Positions 4,882-36,212 of a DNA stretch of 64,000 nucleotides are shown here, piece by piece. The position numbers were made by a program, and so were the translations under genes. Positions within the stretch are counted from its first letter, which is position 1; each line of letters starts with the position of its first letter. A model generated the notes under the pieces. That model ran no database searches, was not told the DNA's origin, and saw only the letters and a program-made list of their open reading frames with translations. Source of the stretch: Thermococcus camini (lineage in GTDB: Archaea > Methanobacteriota_B > Thermococci > Thermococcales > Thermococcaceae); assembly GCF_904067545.1 (NCBI RefSeq), contig NZ_LR881183.1:124001-188000 (forward strand), read 5' to 3'.

Positions 4882-4937
4882 ACGGTTCTTTTCCTTCTTC
4901 ATCTCCCATCCACTGGTTCATCAGGTAGGTGATGTCA

Positions 4938-6287
4938 ATGCGGATTCTTATCCTTGGGTTTGAGTATTTGCCCGTTAAGGTTGGCGGCCTCGCCGAGGCA
5001 GTAACCAGCATAGCGGAGGGTTTAGTCAAGCTTGGTAACGAGGTCGTCGTTTTCACTCCCGACCACGGGAAGAACCTCGGCGAAGTCTCTGGCTCCTTCA
5101 GGGTCTCGACCTTTGGGGGAGAGGTCCCTGTAACAGTCAGAAAGCGCGAGCAGAACGGCGTTACTGTCTACTCCCTCGGAGGGGGACTCCTTAGTGAGAA
5201 GGATGTCTACGGCCCGGGCTGGGAGGCCCTATTACGAAAAACCGTCCTCTTTGGAAAGGCCAGTGTGGGACTTATGAACGGGCTGATTGAAACTTTTAAG
5301 CCGGACGTAATCCACGCCCACGACTGGCACACGGTCTTTGCCCTCGGCCTTTTGAAGAAGTACTTCGGTATAAGGAGTGTCTTCACCGTCCACAGGCTCA
5401 ACAAGGCGAAAATTCCAGCCCACTACTTCCACGATGCAAATCTACCTGAGCTGGCACCGTATCCCGAGATAGACCCCGAGCACACCGCCGGATACATAGC
5501 GGATGCCGTAACGACCGTCAGCAGGAGCTATCTGTGGGAGGAATGGGGGTTCTTCAGGCACTTCGAGGGCAAGGCTACTCACGTCTTCAACGGCATAGAC
5601 TGCTCCTTCTGGAACGAGGAGCTCATGGAGACGAATGACCTGCCCAGGGAGGAAAGGCGGAGGCTTGTTCTGGAGCGCTTCGGCCTGAGCGATGGGAAGG
5701 CCTTCATGTTCATAGGGCGCTTTGACAGGGCCCAGAAGGGCGTTGATACGCTCCTGAGGGCAATAGAGGTTTTATCCAGTGACCCCGCCTTTAAGGATAT
5801 GCGCTTCATAATCATCGGCAAGGGCGATCCGGAGCTTGAGGCCTGGGCCAGAGCCGTGGGAAACCGCTTCTCCGAGAACGTCAGGGTGATTACCGAGCTC
5901 CTCAGCAGAGAGACCGTCAGAGAGCTCTACGGCTCGGTGGACTTTGTTATAATTCCCTCCTACTTCGAGCCCTTCGGTCTAGTCCAGCTTGAAGCCATGT
6001 GCCTTGGAGCGATACCCATAGGCAGCGCCGTTGGAGGTATAAAAGACACGGTGATAGACATCAACTCCGGCCAGAACGCCACCGGGATCCTCGTCCCGCC
6101 GAGGGATGCCTTTGCCCTAGCCAGGGCAATGGTGTTTGCCAAGGAGCTGGACGAAGAGACATTGAGAAAGCTCCGTGAGAACGGAAAGAGGAGGGCAAGG
6201 GGGGACTTCACGTGGGAGAACGCCTGCAGAAGATACATGAGGGTTTACGAGGGCGCCGTTGACAAGGCGGTTCCCTTCCTCCTTTGA
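4938..6287 (+). CDS. glgA: Glycogen synthase (GT5, Pyrococcus type)
   Basis: A 449-residue GT-B glycosyltransferase that extends alpha-1,4-glucan from nucleotide-activated glucose. The N-terminal KVGGLAEAVTSIAEGL is the GT5 nucleotide-sugar loop. HAHDWHTVFALGLLKKYFG, VFTVHRLNKAKIPAHYF and SYFEPFGLVQLEAMCLGAIP (with the conserved Glu pair) are GT5 motifs, and the whole protein closely matches the short archaeal glycogen synthases of Pyrococcus (about 440 residues, much shorter than bacterial GlgA). I use the ATG at 4938 because GGTGAT (4928-4933) is correctly spaced from it. It sits beside the glucan-import genes and regulator, so storage and uptake of glucans are encoded together. There is no TGM directly in front of it. 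Confidence 0.92.
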   Translation: MRILILGFEYLPVKVGGLAEAVTSIAEGLVKLGNEVVVFTPDHGKNLGEVSGSFRVSTFGGEVPVTVRKREQNGVTVYSLGGGLLSEKDVYGPGWEALLRKTVLFGKASVGLMNGLIETFKPDVIHAHDWHTVFALGLLKKYFGIRSVFTVHRLNKAKIPAHYFHDANLPELAPYPEIDPEHTAGYIADAVTTVSRSYLWEEWGFFRHFEGKATHVFNGIDCSFWNEELMETNDLPREERRRLVLERFGLSDGKAFMFIGRFDRAQKGVDTLLRAIEVLSSDPAFKDMRFIIIGKGDPELEAWARAVGNRFSENVRVITELLSRETVRELYGSVDFVIIPSYFEPFGLVQLEAMCLGAIPIGSAVGGIKDTVIDINSGQNATGILVPPRDAFALARAMVFAKELDEETLRKLRENGKRRARGDFTWENACRRYMRVYEGAVDKAVPFLL

Positions 6288-26013: not shown

Positions 26014-27333
26014 ATGGAGGATCTGGCCGTCTTACAAAACCCCTGGTGGGCTGACCCCGATGCGATATACGAGGATGAGCGGGTTAGGAAAGCTCTCTCC
26101 AGAAAACCAAGGATTGGCTATCGTTTCGAGCCGCTCAACAAAATCCTGATCGGCCCGAGGCAAGTCGGCAAGACCACTTACATGAAGCTCTCTATAGCGA
26201 ACCTCATAGAATCGGGAGTTAGCCCGAGAAACATCTTTTACTTCTCGTGCGATCTCCTGAGGGACTATCGTGAGATAGTTTCGGTTGTTAAGTCGTTTCT
26301 CCGGAGTGTGAAGGGAACGGCTTACGTTTTTCTCGATGAAGTCACTTTCGTTGAGGGCTGGGAGCGGTCGGTTAAGTTTCTCTTAGATTCTCCCCTTTCA
26401 TCAAAGATGATACTCCAGGTTACGGGCTCAACTTCCGCAGGGATAAGGAGAGAGAGCTTTCCCGGGAGGAAGGTAAAAGTCGAGGAGTTCCTTCCACTGG
26501 ACTTTAGGACGGTTTCCCTTCTCTTTGAGCCAAAACTGAAGAATATCAAACTCCCCCACGGACTTCCAAAGACGGGCAGGGAGTTCTACGAAAACGCCCT
26601 TGAGCTCTATCCCTACCTCGAAGTTCTGAGCGGGGCACTTGACTTTTACCTCTCCTCAGGAGGCTATCCCAGGTCAATCTACGAACTCCTGGAAGGCAGG
26701 ATAACCTCGGAAACATATGAGATGATATACAACGCCACGGTTCTCGACGTTGTCAAGCTCGGAAGAAGCGAGAGAATAGCACTCTCAATAATACTGGGCC
26801 TCCTCCGCCGCTATGGTGACAGGATAACCTTGAACTCCCTCGCTAAGGAGCTTGAGATAGGCTCTCATGTTACAGTGAGGGATTATCTCGAACTCTTTGA
26901 GGAGCTGTTCATTGGGCGGAACTACTTCCAGGTCAAACTACATGAGCTCGTCCCCATGTTTCGAAAGGAGCGTAAATTCTACTTTGCCGACCCCCTACTC
27001 GTTCAAACCTTTAGGAGGCTCTTTGGGAAGGGGCCCGAGACCGATAGGATAATTGAGGGGGTTGTTGGCGAACATCTGAAACGCCTGTACCCCACCTACT
27101 TTTTCAGCGGTTCCAGGGAGGTGGACTTTATAACTGCCGGCTTTGGAGTTGAGGTTAAGTGGAGGAATAGAGTTAAGTCTTCGGACTTTCCAAGGGTTGG
27201 GATAAAGGAAAAGATACTCCTTTCAAAGGACAAGCTTGAGTTCCTTGAAGAAAACAACCTCGCGATAATCCCGGTTCCACTCTTTTTATTTCAGCTTCAC
27301 CCGGCCAGCTCGAACCTCGCAACGGTCTCGTAA
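26014..27333 (+). CDS. AAA_14/DUF4143-type ATPase
   Basis: A 439-residue P-loop ATPase of the archaeal/bacterial AAA_14 plus DUF4143 group. Walker A is GPRQVGKTT (47-55), Walker B is [11 protein letters not shown], and [20 protein letters not shown] contains the sensor region. A winged-helix-like part follows ([20 protein letters not shown]), and the end, [17 protein letters not shown], has the E-D-F...E-V-K pattern of a degraded PD-(D/E)xK nuclease fold. Many copies occur in Thermococcales; roles are unknown. It is divergent from cca and converges with thpR, overlapping it by 37 bases. Confidence 0.85.
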
Positions 27334-27851
27334 ATCGGTCCCTTTGGAGTCAGCGTGCTCTTCTTCAGCTCTATGGCCTCGACATCGAACTCGCCGAAGT
27401 CTTCATTGGCAAGGTCTTTGAGCGCCATCGCCAGCTCAACCTTATCGCGCACGAACTTCACCCTGCCTATGGTTATGTGCGCCACGAAGTCCTTGACCTT
27501 TTTGAAGCCCAGGCGGCGCATCTCCTTCTCCACATCGGCCGCTATCGCCTTTATGCCCTCGTCGTTCTCTATTCCCGCCCAGATGACCCTAACATAGTTC
27601 GGGTTCGGGAAGACGCCTATACCCTTAACGCGAACGCGGTGCTTTTTGTGCTTCTTTGCTATCTCAGCTAAAGCTTTCTTAACATCTTCAGCTAAAGCTT
27701 CGTTAATCTCCCCAAGGAACTTAAGCGTTACATGGAAGTTCTCGCGCTCGACGAACTTTATCTTTGCTGACTTGCTCCCTATTCTCTCCTGGGCCTTGAG
27801 AAGGTTGTCGCGAACTTCGTCGCTCACATCGATAGCAATGAACGCCCTCAT
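27297..27851 (-). CDS. thpR: RNA 2',3'-cyclic phosphodiesterase (2H family)
   Basis: A 184-residue 2H phosphoesterase, formerly called 2'-5' RNA ligase. The two catalytic HxT motifs are HVTLKFLG and HITIGRVKF, spaced as in the family. The N-terminus [20 protein letters not shown] is typical. It opens 2',3'-cyclic phosphates, probably during RNA processing or repair. The 3' end overlaps the convergent ATPase gene. Confidence 0.93.
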
Positions 27852-27908
27852 ACCACCACCGAGAAAAGTTGGGGGGAGGGGTTAAAGGGGTTTCGAATTT
27901 CTTAAACT

Positions 27909-28070
27909 TCACCACCCTAGAAGCCACATCAGGATGAACGCTATTACTCCGATTTCCCACATGGTACCCAGTGGCAAACTGTCCCCATGTTTTGACTTTG
28001 TGTGCTTTAGGTGGAATATTGCTAAAATGTAGAAAAAGATTAGGAAGTCCAAAATTGTCCTGTAGTTCAT
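27909..28070 (-). CDS. Tiny two-helix membrane protein, 53 residues (possible immunity protein)
   Basis: Starts MNYRTILDFLIFFYILAIFH and ends EIGVIAFILMWLLGW, two membrane helices joined by a short basic loop (HLKHTKSKHGDS). A weak ribosome binding site (AGGGATGTGA) lies just upstream. The gene follows the 59-residue membrane protein by 43 bases and has the same helix-basic loop-helix plan, as if the two were duplicated. Both lie downstream of a gene for a secreted protein with a bacteriocin-like C-terminus, so an immunity role is a reasonable guess. The AT content is well above the flanking housekeeping genes. Confidence 0.6.
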   Translation of the reverse strand: MNYRTILDFLIFFYILAIFHLKHTKSKHGDSLPLGTMWEIGVIAFILMWLLGW

Positions 28071-28113
28071 TTTCACATCCCTGGCTTAGTTTTCGTTTTG
28101 TGGTTAAGAAAAA

Positions 28114-28293
28114 TTAATAATGGCGGTAACGGAGCCACAAACTAAAAAGAATCGCCCCAAAAAACAAGGCGATAGCAGCCCACATCTGCTTAGCATGGTC
28201 TTTTGTCCGTAATCCCACTATCCCAAAAGCAAGGGAATAAATGAAAAAGAAAACTCCAACGAGTACATCCATCGTGTTTGCGTTCAAGGGCAT
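28114..28293 (-). CDS. Tiny two-helix membrane protein, 59 residues (possible immunity protein)
   Basis: Begins MPLNANTMDVLVGVFFFIYS, a first helix, then GLRTKDHAKQMW as basic loop and AIALFFGAILFSLWLRYRHY as second helix with a basic end. It starts five bases after the stop of the bacteriocin-like gene, with GGTGA in the short gap, and so is translationally coupled to it. A TTG at the fourth codon is better spaced from that site and may be the true start. No family recognised. Confidence 0.65.
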   Translation of the reverse strand: MPLNANTMDVLVGVFFFIYSLAFGIVGLRTKDHAKQMWAAIALFFGAILFSLWLRYRHY

Positions 28294-28297
28294 CACC

Positions 28298-29071
28298 TTA
28301 GTTATGCCATATTATTGTCTGTCCCAGTACGTACTTCACGTAGATACCTTTATGACCCCCTAGTGCATCTATAGTATAAATAACTGTCGCGCTGGCCATC
28401 AATGCTGCTGCCGCTATAAGGGCAATACCTGCAGGAACCCCAGTATAAATTAAATATGCTGCTATCGCACCAGCTGTGGCTGACCCCTTCTCCAATATAC
28501 TAACGATATCTTGTGTTTCCTGTTCAGTGAATACAACTTTCCATCCCCACCAGTGGGGTCCATCAAATGATGCGTCTGGATGGATTATGTCTCCTTTGAA
28601 CGGGGCTGTGGAGACGGGCTGATAATAGGTTATTCTTTTGAATGGCTGGGACAGTTCTTGTATCTCACTCTTAGTGTACCTGTGAATCCTGACATTACCA
28701 TCTGTCACAGTTTTAACGACAATATTGTTCTCGGTGGTTTTTATAATCCGTGAGAGGCTTATGGATTTCCCATCGTAGATGCCCACTATTGATCCCTTGG
28801 GGGTGTGTATGGTGAATGCATAGTATGAACTGGCCTTATAGCCCTGAATATTTTCAATAGAAATCTCAGTTCTTGGTATTCCCAAGGCCGGGAGTTCATC
28901 TGAGACTATGGACAGTATCTTTGATTTATCTGTTTTAGATAGAGGGGATACTCGGAGCTGAATTGGTGTGTACTGGTTTTTTGAAACCACAGCGGTTGCA
29001 CTAGCACTTCCAGCCGTCACTCCCACCATCAGCAGTCCCAGCAGGACTGCCAACAGGGGCTTCCACCGCAA
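28298..29071 (-). CDS. Secreted protein with hydrophobic bacteriocin-like C-terminal segment
   Basis: A 257-residue protein. The signal peptide is RWKPLLAVLLGLLMVGVTAG with probable cleavage after SASA. The middle is a beta-rich region (ISLSRIIKTTENNIVVKTVT) reaching HPDASFDGPHWWGWKVVF. The last approximately 65 residues are a small-residue-rich hydrophobic stretch (GSATAGAIAAYLIYTGVPAG, then IALIAAAALMASATVIYTID) ending GQTIIWHN. That layout recalls precursor proteins of halocin C8 and of hydrophobic or circular bacteriocins. I chose TTG 29071 because GGAGGTG is six bases upstream and the TATA box at 29121-29130 would begin transcription after any earlier start. It heads a three-gene unit with two tiny membrane proteins. 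Confidence 0.65.
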   Translation of the reverse strand: MRWKPLLAVLLGLLMVGVTAGSASATAVVSKNQYTPIQLRVSPLSKTDKSKILSIVSDELPALGIPRTEISIENIQGYKASSYYAFTIHTPKGSIVGIYDGKSISLSRIIKTTENNIVVKTVTDGNVRIHRYTKSEIQELSQPFKRITYYQPVSTAPFKGDIIHPDASFDGPHWWGWKVVFTEQETQDIVSILEKGSATAGAIAAYLIYTGVPAGIALIAAAALMASATVIYTIDALGGHKGIYVKYVLGQTIIWHN

Positions 29072-29120
29072 GTGGTCCACCTCCATGGGTTGTCTGCACT
29101 CAACACTGTGCAACTTTTCC

Positions 29121-29130
29121 TTATAAATTT
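29121..29130 (-). promoter_or_regulatory. TATA box of the bacteriocin-like cassette
   Basis: On the minus strand AAATTTATAA, about 50 bases before the TTG start, with an AT-rich upstream flank. Transcription should start near 29098, which rules out translation from the upstream in-frame codons around 29215. Confidence 0.55.
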
Positions 29131-29280
29131 TTCCGTTTACTATAAGTAAGACTTCTTCCTTTTTTTTCGAGTATAGATTTATTCTAACCATTATTTTCCT
29201 CTTAGAACGAGCCAAAAGAAGTCAGAGTAAAAGAGTTGCATAGCGATGCAACGGAAAGTGTGGGAAGAGAGAAGAAAACC

Positions 29281-29742
29281 TCACTCCCTCACCACAACCG
29301 GGAACTCCTCCCAGGGGAAGACTATCCACTTGTCGGTGCGGAAGACATAGAAGTCCGGAACCACCTTCGTCCAGGGCTTCATGCTGAGGCACGCTACCTT
29401 AACCTCGCTCGCCCCTGCCTTCTTGACCTCCTCGATGACGACTTCGAGGGTCTTCCCGGTGTCGCTGACGTCGTCCACTATAACGACCTTCTTGCCCTCC
29501 AGGGAGCCGTGGAGGGGGATGGTTATGAGCGGCTTCTCCATCCTCTCCTCGATGTCCTTGTAGAACTTTACATCTATCACCTTGACCTCTAAGTCACCGA
29601 GGATGTGGCTGAGCCTCACGGCCGGGATGAGTCCGCCCCTCGCGACGCCGACGATAACGTCGGGTTTATACTCCCTCAGCCTGTCTGCGAGCGCAAAGAT
29701 GGCCCTGTCAATCTGCCACCAGGTGAGGTAAACTTTGTCCAT
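29281..29742 (-). CDS. Purine phosphoribosyltransferase (xanthine/guanine type)
   Basis: A 153-residue PRTase. The PRPP-binding motif is VVIVDDVSDTGKTLEVV and the N-terminal region has DVIVGVARGGLIPAVRLSHI. This is the usual pattern of archaeal Gpt/Hpt-like salvage enzymes, which join a purine base to PRPP. The ATG is preceded by GGAGGTG. Which base it prefers cannot be read from the sequence. Confidence 0.9.
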   Translation of the reverse strand: MDKVYLTWWQIDRAIFALADRLREYKPDVIVGVARGGLIPAVRLSHILGDLEVKVIDVKFYKDIEERMEKPLITIPLHGSLEGKKVVIVDDVSDTGKTLEVVIEEVKKAGASEVKVACLSMKPWTKVVPDFYVFRTDKWIVFPWEEFPVVVRE

Positions 29743-34094: not shown

Positions 34095-36212
34095 TTACCT
34101 ACGCTTTTGGGTCCCGTTGGTTATGATGGCATGGCTTTCATCGTTGCATACTGTGCTCACAATAGCCCGATTGTACCCGTCGTTGTGAATTTCATCGACT
34201 TCAAGACGCTCCCCGCTTGCGGGATCCCAGAATCCAAGCCGTATTGTGTAGCACCCGCTGGGGATCTGGACTACGTAGGATTCTGTTACTGTATCGCCTG
34301 GTTGCCACGATGAAGTGGGGCATTTTCCTCCACAGGGGCCGTGATCCTGCTGGAATTTCGCGTCTATACTCCCTTTGGGGGTGAAATGGACAAAGATGAT
34401 ATAATCTTTTTTGACCTTTTTGAGGGATTTCCAGGTGTATGTTATTAGAACCGTGCTCCTTGAGATTTCACTTAGATTGTATATACAGAACCTTGTCAGT
34501 TCGATGCTGTTTCCGAAAACTGCAGAGATGTTCTCGCAGTTATCACTGTCAGACTTCTCTTCGGGGAGGGGAGTACTGTTCCTCCTTGCATACAATACTC
34601 CAATAGCCCCGTCTGGAAATTTGTATCTGGATACTGGATAGAACTCTCTGGTGATGTTGTTGTACTTTTTAAATATTGCCCGAGCTCTCTTCACATAGTC
34701 AAGTGCCCACGGCTCCGATAGGAATCCTCCCTCTGTGTAGAGCACGTAATCTGCCGATAGTAAGGGAATTATATTCCTCTCATTGGTGGGTTCTATGACA
34801 TCTATGTGCTTGTCTTCCATCAAACTTCTGTATCTCAATGGCCAGGAGATCCATGGATTCTGGGCCAGAATATAGAGTGTCACGGGATCGTCACTTGTAT
34901 CGTTGATGTCTGCAAGTATCTCCTTAATGTTCCAATCCCTTTCGTCTGTCTTCAGGTACTCCGCCCATTCAACATGACCGAAAATCCTGCTCTCATAGAA
35001 TCCGGTTGCAAAAATTCTGCCCCCTGATACTGGGATCATGTTAGGATCCTCTATGAGTGTTCTCTGGGAGATAACGCCCTGAAACGTTAGAACGTTCACA
35101 ATTCCAGATACCATTAAGACGATGGTAACTGCAATTGCTGCATATTTTTTTCGTTTGAATATCTTGTGTATCCCTATCCCAATCACCAGTCCCATAAATG
35201 GTATCATGGGCATGAGGAACCGGGGTGCTTTGTTTCTAGTCAATGTGAATATCAGGAACCCCGTGATTATTTGAATAATCAGGAGGCTCTCAAAGTCGTC
35301 TTTTCTAAGCTTGAGGACTACAATGAACATCCCAATTAACACGATGGTTCCAAGTAGCCCGAAATAGTAATTTATGCTTGAACTGGGGTAATATATGAAA
35401 GATTGCAGCGTTAGAATTGGGGGATCCCCTTCAAGGGCACCGCTGACTTGGCTGTTGTACTTTAGTGCCGAGAGCAGGGCTTTGAAGTTCGGTATGTACC
35501 ACCAGCCCGCCACCAGTACTGCCAAAACGCTCAGCGTAAGGAGGTTCTTGAGCTCATTTTTTCTTTGTTTCAGGATTCCTCTTATCCCGAGGGTCAGAGG
35601 GCTGATGGACAGGTTCAACTCGTAAAAAACCGGAACCATGACAAAGATCGGAAAGGTCCACTTTGCCAGTAGTCCCGCCCCTAGAGAAATCCCCGAGAGG
35701 ACGGAGTATCTTCTTGATCTGAAACCGTTGCTCTTTAGGAGTAAGTACCAGGTTAGTACTGCCATGGCGGTAAGGGGGATGTCCAGCATGAATGTTATTG
35801 CCTGATCCAGGATTAGCGGGGAAGTTAGGACCGCAAACACTGCAATAATGGAGGGGACTCTGCTTCCAGTAAACTCCGAAAGCTTGTACAACGCGTAGAC
35901 CAGTATCACAATGAACACGGCGTTTTCGATGAATATGCCGACTCTGGGATCTGGGCCTGTAATCGCGTAGATCGGGATGGGAATTAACGTTGCCAGTGGG
36001 GGATAGTATCGGTCTATCGTTATCATGGAGTGAGGGGATAGGGTTCGGATGGCTTGATAATATTTGATGCTGTCCATAAAATGGATCGCCGGATCCCATA
36101 TCATCGGTGTCATAGTCGTGCCGAAGACATTAGTCAGTATCAACACGATGAAAAGTGTTGTGATTACTATTATTGTGCTCTTTTCTATACCTTCATTCAA
36201 GGAGGCTTTCAT
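34095..36212 (-). CDS. GT39/ArnT-like integral membrane glycosyltransferase
   Basis: A 705-residue GT-C protein. The N-terminal half has about ten membrane helices (VITTLFIVLILTNVFGTTMT at the start; LTAMAVLTWYLLL). The first loop includes MIWDPAIHFMDSIKYYQ, equivalent to the Asp-containing loop of PMT/ArnT enzymes. The C-terminal approximately 300 residues are extracellular, with several N-x-S/T sequons and a short cysteine pair (HGPCGGKCPTSSW). Such enzymes transfer a sugar from a polyprenyl-phosphate donor to glycans or proteins outside the cell. The base composition is AT-richer than neighbours, which suggests acquisition. It stands next to aglB. Confidence 0.75.
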   Translation of the reverse strand: MKASLNEGIEKSTIIVITTLFIVLILTNVFGTTMTPMIWDPAIHFMDSIKYYQAIRTLSPHSMITIDRYYPPLATLIPIPIYAITGPDPRVGIFIENAVFIVILVYALYKLSEFTGSRVPSIIAVFAVLTSPLILDQAITFMLDIPLTAMAVLTWYLLLKSNGFRSRRYSVLSGISLGAGLLAKWTFPIFVMVPVFYELNLSISPLTLGIRGILKQRKNELKNLLTLSVLAVLVAGWWYIPNFKALLSALKYNSQVSGALEGDPPILTLQSFIYYPSSSINYYFGLLGTIVLIGMFIVVLKLRKDDFESLLIIQIITGFLIFTLTRNKAPRFLMPMIPFMGLVIGIGIHKIFKRKKYAAIAVTIVLMVSGIVNVLTFQGVISQRTLIEDPNMIPVSGGRIFATGFYESRIFGHVEWAEYLKTDERDWNIKEILADINDTSDDPVTLYILAQNPWISWPLRYRSLMEDKHIDVIEPTNERNIIPLLSADYVLYTEGGFLSEPWALDYVKRARAIFKKYNNITREFYPVSRYKFPDGAIGVLYARRNSTPLPEEKSDSDNCENISAVFGNSIELTRFCIYNLSEISRSTVLITYTWKSLKKVKKDYIIFVHFTPKGSIDAKFQQDHGPCGGKCPTSSWQPGDTVTESYVVQIPSGCYTIRLGFWDPASGERLEVDEIHNDGYNRAIVSTVCNDESHAIITNGTQKRR

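Follow-up and report, generated by a model that had tools for sequence, protein, structure and literature searches.

A cassette of three genes lies in the window, a stretch of 64,000 nucleotides from the genome of Thermococcus camini (G000 among the genomes compared here), and all features of the locus described below are on the minus strand. The first gene (positions 28298 to 29071) encodes a secreted precursor, termed type A, that is a candidate archaeocin. It is followed by two genes (28114 to 28293 and 27909 to 28070) for small proteins with two transmembrane (TM) segments each. The local G+C content of the cassette is 42 to 44% versus ∼50 to 58% in the flanks, which bears out the description of the cassette in an earlier note on this DNA as AT rich and unlike the flanking genes. 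The window holds another AT-rich gene (34095 to 36212, minus strand; 43 to 47% G+C), which encodes a 705-amino-acid multi-TM protein unrelated to the cassette.

The precursor has 257 amino acids when translated from a TTG at 29071 and 262 from an ATG at 29086. The sequence GGAGGTG immediately ahead of the TTG resembles the ribosome-binding site of the precursor, and TTG 29071 was therefore taken as the start; homologues have GTG, TTG, or ATG at this position. The peptide MEVDH, obtained when GGAGGTG is read as codons, was rejected as a conserved peptide because it is the Shine-Dalgarno sequence in codon reading. The leader M-RWKPLLAVLLGLLMVGVTAGSASA (28997 to 29071) is a Sec-type signal peptide, lacks a twin-arginine motif, and is common to at least 22 unrelated protein clusters of the Thermococcaceae. 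The last 65 residues of the precursor include 14 alanines, nine isoleucines, and eight glycines, with one aspartate, one glutamate, and no arginine, and the most hydrophobic 19-residue window (residue 221) has a mean hydropathy of 2.15. Composition and hydropathy thus confirm a Sec-secreted protein of 257 residues with an Ala/Gly/Ile-rich hydrophobic tail, as described earlier. Cysteine is absent from all 262 residues.

The first small gene begins four bases past the precursor stop codon. Its ATG at 28293 gives 59 amino acids, and the alternative TTG at 28284 (57 amino acids) fits its homologues, collectively termed the 60-amino-acid gene, better. It stands behind every intact type A precursor and is the candidate cognate immunity gene. 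Matches of its product to VKOR and DUF202 are weak, fall below curated cutoffs, and were discounted as chance two-TM composition. The second small gene encodes 53 amino acids, so that both proteins reported earlier (59 and 53 residues) are indeed present downstream of the precursor. The copy of the 53-amino-acid gene in G021 is frameshifted. The ratios of nonsynonymous to synonymous substitution (dN/dS, Nei-Gojobori) are 0.15 to 0.36 for the precursor, 0.19 to 0.35 for the 60-amino-acid gene, and 0.12 to 0.29 for the 53-amino-acid gene; values so far below 1 indicate real, constrained proteins rather than chance frames.

The precursor has no match above cutoff in Pfam or NCBIfam, bacteriocin families included, and none to PDB sequences or PHROGs, so that these searches link it to no known bacteriocin or toxin. 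An enzymatic domain in its middle region, which the earlier note had named beforehand as telling against its reading, was not found by the Pfam, NCBIfam, and PDB sequence searches. Plasmids, phages, and viral contigs gave no match either, and carriage of the cassette by a mobile element was rejected. There is no match among 84,980 species genomes, a set that may leave out the nearest kin, and relatives are confined to the Thermococcaceae. Full-length relatives are rare and patchy (G021, 93% identity; G002, 65%; G046, 42%), with broken copies in G028 and G073 and a C-terminal remnant in G055. The other outcome named in advance as adverse, a wide vertical distribution without the small genes, is likewise not what is seen: every intact copy (G000, G021, G002, and G046) is followed by a small two-TM gene.

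An AlphaFold2 model of the precursor, built from four sequences (mean pLDDT, 60), predicts two domains. The N-terminal domain (residues 46 to 146 of 262; 28649 to 28951) consists of a helix and six strands (block pLDDT, ∼72 to 90). It is joined by a linker (residues 147 to 177; 28556 to 28648) within a stretch predicted to be disordered (residues 146 to 180), a candidate processing region, to a C-terminal domain (residues 178 to 262; 28301 to 28555) with an HWWGWK strand, four helices, including a hydrophobic hairpin, and two strands. Confidence in the C-terminal domain, the candidate membrane-inserting part, is only moderate (block pLDDT, 55 to 73). A fold search of the PDB with the model returned nothing below an E value of 0.08. 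By a purely sequence-based criterion, the signal peptide and the C-terminal hairpin together make this a secreted protein with candidate membrane-inserting hydrophobic helices, and the model makes it plausible that a C-terminal peptide could be released at the linker.

A shared leader and an exchange site

The region upstream of the precursor (29072 to 29257) contains an inverted repeat, GTTGCAT-N4-ATGCAAC (29235 to 29252), a CTCTTTTACTC..CTTCTTTTG block, a BRE/TATA-like box, GGAAAAATTTATAAGG (29119 to 29134), and the Shine-Dalgarno sequence. Some 190 bp are conserved ahead of leader genes along with the signal peptide, and the elements found across these genes are the TTGCAT..ATGCAA repeat, CTCTTTTACTC.G.CTTCTTTTG, TTCTAA, GAATAAATTTATACT, and the BRE/TATA-like GGAAAAACTTATAAGG. 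The core of the region occurs only three times in the T. camini genome, each time ahead of a leader gene. Conservation of one upstream element across unrelated genes suggests that it is probably the binding region of a shared regulator. The element (29072 to 29257; also L036, L039, L041, L131, L138, and L151) falls into approximately three subclasses and shows strong conservation across the stretch bounded by the TTGCAT repeat and the TATA box.

The leader signal peptide is present in 55 of 151 genomes of relatives, only in Thermococcaceae, and often recurs within a genome, with several copies standing ahead of unrelated proteins. The mature parts of the 95 open reading frames collected fall into at least 22 clusters at an E value of 1e-6. 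Most leader proteins have no Pfam domain, and known trafficking or toxin domains are missing from the 44 scanned for them, bar one Peptidase_C39-like domain and weak glycine zippers. The former (E value, 5e-9; L146:818-2062, plus strand) is the only enzymatic domain clearly identified in the leader proteins that were scanned. Many leader-bearing secreted proteins have no hydrophobic tail, and in two of the clusters (1 and 5) a partner gene is not consistently present; the leader therefore marks export or regulation rather than toxicity.

Two further leader genes of T. camini (4892 to 6106 and 11381 to 12802 of L036, G000:C1:464001-483900; 404 and 473 amino acids) are located in the leuS region, and the longer is followed by genes for a 416-amino-acid secreted protein and a 163-amino-acid protein with four TM segments. 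Three leader genes stand in a row in L143 (G040:C5:91000-103000), including two intact precursors of cluster 0, each with its own small membrane partner; by gene order, this is a tandem cassette array.

In the window, the cassette lies between a phosphoribosyltransferase gene (hpt; 29281 to 29742) on the left of the exchange site and thpR (27297 to 27851), encoding RNA 2′,3′-cyclic phosphodiesterase (TIGR02258), on the right. The interval between the two genes was compared in 53 Thermococcaceae genomes and is empty in 14, with 12 to 43 bp between hpt and thpR. The native 5′ segment of thpR (27852 to 27893), the right-hand border of the exchanged region, is kept in empty and occupied sites; the last ∼39 bp ahead of thpR are the same in both, which places the cassettes exactly between hpt and thpR. 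A second site of cassettes adjoins leuS.

Occupied hpt-thpR sites hold differing genes; in many cases, unrelated secreted proteins are encoded behind the same ∼190-bp promoter and signal peptide. Type A (262 plus 60 amino acids) is found in T. camini and G021, type B (276 plus 53) in G046, type D (225 plus 369) in G043 and G039, and type E in G028. Type C (297 plus 105) is intact in five genomes (G007, G030, G032, G055, and G057) and broken in two (G024 and G086). Other contents are nonhydrophobic leader proteins, single membrane genes, or very large proteins. The sites of G054, G050, G045, G009, and G017 (L099, L101, L105, L110, and L084, respectively) encode secreted proteins without the shared leader. 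In G054, this is a protein of ∼410 amino acids that is hydrophobic at both its N- and C-terminal ends; other leaderless occupants are proteins of 960 to 2,090 amino acids ending in LPLPGA(S/D)QGDTSGFSA(G/E)D. The first 276 bp of G046 and G043, which run to the signal peptide end, have 92% identity, after which the two sequences continue into unrelated gene pairs. As read from this alignment, the breakpoint at the signal peptide end is a direct trace of cassette exchange.

Partner genes and their retention

Four leader clusters with hydrophobic tails (0, 2, 6, and 7; 28 proteins) are always followed by a gene for a membrane protein. The association between a hydrophobic tail and a multi-TM next gene has a P value of 3e-7 by record, the records being related to one another, and of 0.056 by cluster. 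Among genes of the window encoding at least 150 amino acids, only three of 41, including this cassette, are followed by a small multi-TM gene. The model of a cluster 0 protein (pLDDT, 75) has an Ig/cohesin-like sandwich, a three-helix hydrophobic bundle, and a final strand, with weak matches to cohesin/Ig-like beta-sandwiches in the PDB (best E value, 1e-3). It is unrelated to type A, and the two models together suggest a common plan, with a soluble domain followed by hydrophobic helices.

The hairpin and the linker are the parts in which types A and B diverge most (31 and 27% identity, respectively), the final 21 residues being 76% identical. Within type A, the hairpin is conserved at 74% (G002) to 100% (G021). 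The type of partner tracks the type of hairpin and not that of the N-terminal domain, and, as far as these comparisons go, such tracking is what immunity to a pore former predicts.

Partner genes also outlast their precursors. In G011, only the final ∼13 codons of type B remain behind the promoter, ahead of an intact 53-amino-acid gene; in G042, the final 15 codons of type C likewise adjoin the promoter and precede an intact 105-amino-acid gene. A translocated patch in G042 (L199, G042:C5, near 84124), with fragments of a reductase gene, a phosphoribosyltransferase gene, the promoter, and a toxin tail, takes an intact 105-amino-acid partner gene to a different genomic location. G039 has kept a type B tail and the 53-amino-acid gene behind another cassette. 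The 60-amino-acid gene is open with no nearby toxin in G012, G031, and G049, and in G055 it lies next to a degenerate toxin; the 53-amino-acid gene is open in G028 and G073, where the type B precursor is broken. Some of the broken precursors come from draft genomes, where the breaks may be errors of sequencing. A partner accompanies each of the 10 intact precursors of types A, B, and C, and ∼14 partner genes have no intact precursor. The partner genes are shorter, and on length alone the probability of this split is ∼0.04 by our own arithmetic, the cases not being fully independent, so the excess is supportive rather than decisive.

Retention of partners after toxin loss would explain the 53-amino-acid gene of the window. 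It is 89% identical to the type B partner of G046, in which that pairing is intact, and remnants of the corresponding toxin precede it in G011 and G039. This makes it the partner of a different toxin and probably an orphaned immunity gene that stayed in place as type A displaced type B. The earlier proposal that both small proteins protect against the same precursor is not supported.

Known systems and alternative explanations

Halocin C8 is a cysteine-rich archaeocin of haloarchaea, produced as a secreted precursor with a presumed active C-terminal part. The cassette resembles it in being archaeal, in having a secreted precursor, and in its presumed active C terminus. However, the precursor has neither cysteine nor a twin-arginine motif and no sequence match to halocin C8, and candidate immunity is encoded in separate membrane genes rather than in the N-terminal part of the precursor. 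The kinship with halocin C8 suggested earlier is therefore not supported, and membership in that family was rejected.

Among pore formers, Sec-dependent class II bacteriocins and pore-forming colicins have membrane immunity proteins. The cassette shares with these a hydrophobic helical hairpin, a small multi-TM gene directly downstream, and partner specificity that tracks the hairpin. In contrast, the size of its precursor lies far above that of class II peptides and far below that of colicins, and a double-glycine leader, a dedicated transporter, and detectable homology are lacking. Cdz, a glycine zipper two-protein bacteriocin of Caulobacter (PMC5380434), has Gly/Ala-rich hydrophobic active proteins, and type C weakly touches the Pfam glycine zipper models; unlike Cdz, the cassette encodes a single protein with a Sec signal and adjoins no dedicated export apparatus.

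A further parallel in organization is with polymorphic toxin systems, which combine a constant N-terminal export part with a variable remainder, an adjacent immunity gene, orphan immunity genes, and exchange by recombination (Zhang et al. 2012, PMC3482391). Counterparts here are a constant export part in at least 22 clusters, variation beginning at a breakpoint at the signal peptide end, and neighboring and orphan candidate immunity genes in the expected gene order. The constant part differs, however, in comprising only promoter and signal peptide, with no large trafficking domain; everything past the signal peptide is exchanged, and known toxin domains were not detected.

The VARTIG loci of Thermococcales encode large Ig domain proteins, mostly of >500 amino acids, with GN and DNNxxxGG motifs, and their modules have been compared with toxin systems (Makarova et al. 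2021, PMC8416519). Like them, the cassettes are hypervariable, recently acquired secreted or membrane loci of Thermococcales. Membership of the precursor in VARTIG was rejected, as its 257 amino acids include neither these motifs nor an Ig domain in Pfam and its AlphaFold2 model is not Ig-like.

In the main rival explanation, the precursor is a variable surface or secreted recognition module (for adhesion, self/nonself recognition, or cell-cell contact), to which the small membrane proteins serve as anchors or receptors, and recognition is the driver of diversity, as proposed for VARTIG. Such a role is one option considered for the hypervariable, recently acquired, membrane-rich loci found in Thermococcales (PMC8416519), and the Ig/cohesin-like sandwich of the cluster 0 model, weak as its matches are, and the many tailless leader proteins would suit such a role. 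Anchors or receptors, however, would not be expected to outlast the exact loss of their secreted partner, as the small genes do in G011, G042, G012, G031, and G049, and in types A and B the partner follows the hairpin instead of the N-terminal domain, so that this explanation appears rather unlikely.

Membrane-active antiviral effectors are known, and the toxin-antidote-like gene pairing and patchy distribution could also reflect an addiction or suicide module in which the precursor harms its own cell unless the small membrane protein is present. This is very doubtful, as the cleavable Sec signal peptide conserved in every copy points outward and no link of the cassette to phages, plasmids, or other defense genes was found. 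Equally improbable is a collection of neutral or selfish secreted ORFans with no common function that exploit a strong promoter and signal peptide while membrane genes hitchhike, since the lack of known domains in most leader proteins, high turnover, and common pseudogenes are offset by the constraint on all three genes and by the recurrence of membrane genes next to precursors with hydrophobic tails.

A candidate arsenal of secreted effectors

On balance, the cassette probably encodes a polymorphic, secreted, and likely membrane-active archaeocin with its immunity protein. The sequences themselves provide the secretion signal, the hydrophobic hairpin, the constraint, the polymorphic site, the shared leader, the breakpoint, and toxin loss that spares the partner; from these, we infer killing, pore formation, processing, and immunity. 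The earlier idea of a Thermococcales archaeocin with immunity proteins thus survives as a secreted, toxin-like precursor, patchily distributed and always paired with candidate membrane protein immunity, and is not supported as regards halocin C8 kinship and protection by the second small protein against this precursor. Its remark that no such system is well described in Thermococcales agrees with the literature searched (exclusive of the 2019 mBio survey of conflict systems in archaea), which yielded no description of archaeocins in this order.

In the proposed mechanism, one promoter would drive synthesis of a Sec-secreted two-domain protein and, four bases on, of a two-TM protein. The soluble N-terminal domain would probably serve as a carrier, targeting domain, or proprotein, and the hairpin of the ∼85-residue C-terminal domain would insert into and permeabilize the membranes of related Thermococcales. 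The protein of 57 to 60 amino acids, located in the producer's own membrane, would block permeabilization, and the 53-amino-acid gene, as a relic of a former type B cassette, may still confer protection from producers of type B. Replacement of cassettes at hpt-thpR would proceed by recombination through the conserved promoter and signal peptide at one end and through thpR at the opposite end.

More tentatively, Thermococcaceae may maintain an arsenal of polymorphic secreted effectors across the genus, with the fixed promoter and signal peptide forming an expression and export slot and homologous recombination through this slot swapping whole unrelated effector-immunity pairs at fixed sites (hpt-thpR and leuS). 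Deletion of the effector with retention of the immunity gene would then yield protected nonproducers. If so, Thermococcales would have their first archaeocin system, which would also represent a whole-gene form of polymorphic toxin, and the cassettes would account for a set of strain-variable "dark matter" secreted proteins. Thermococcales include model strains with genetics, and strains differing only in orphan immunity genes would on this reading be expected to differ in sensitivity. The cassettes would also offer heat-stable, membrane-active proteins with specific antidotes and would show a hyperthermophile swapping weapons at a fixed slot.
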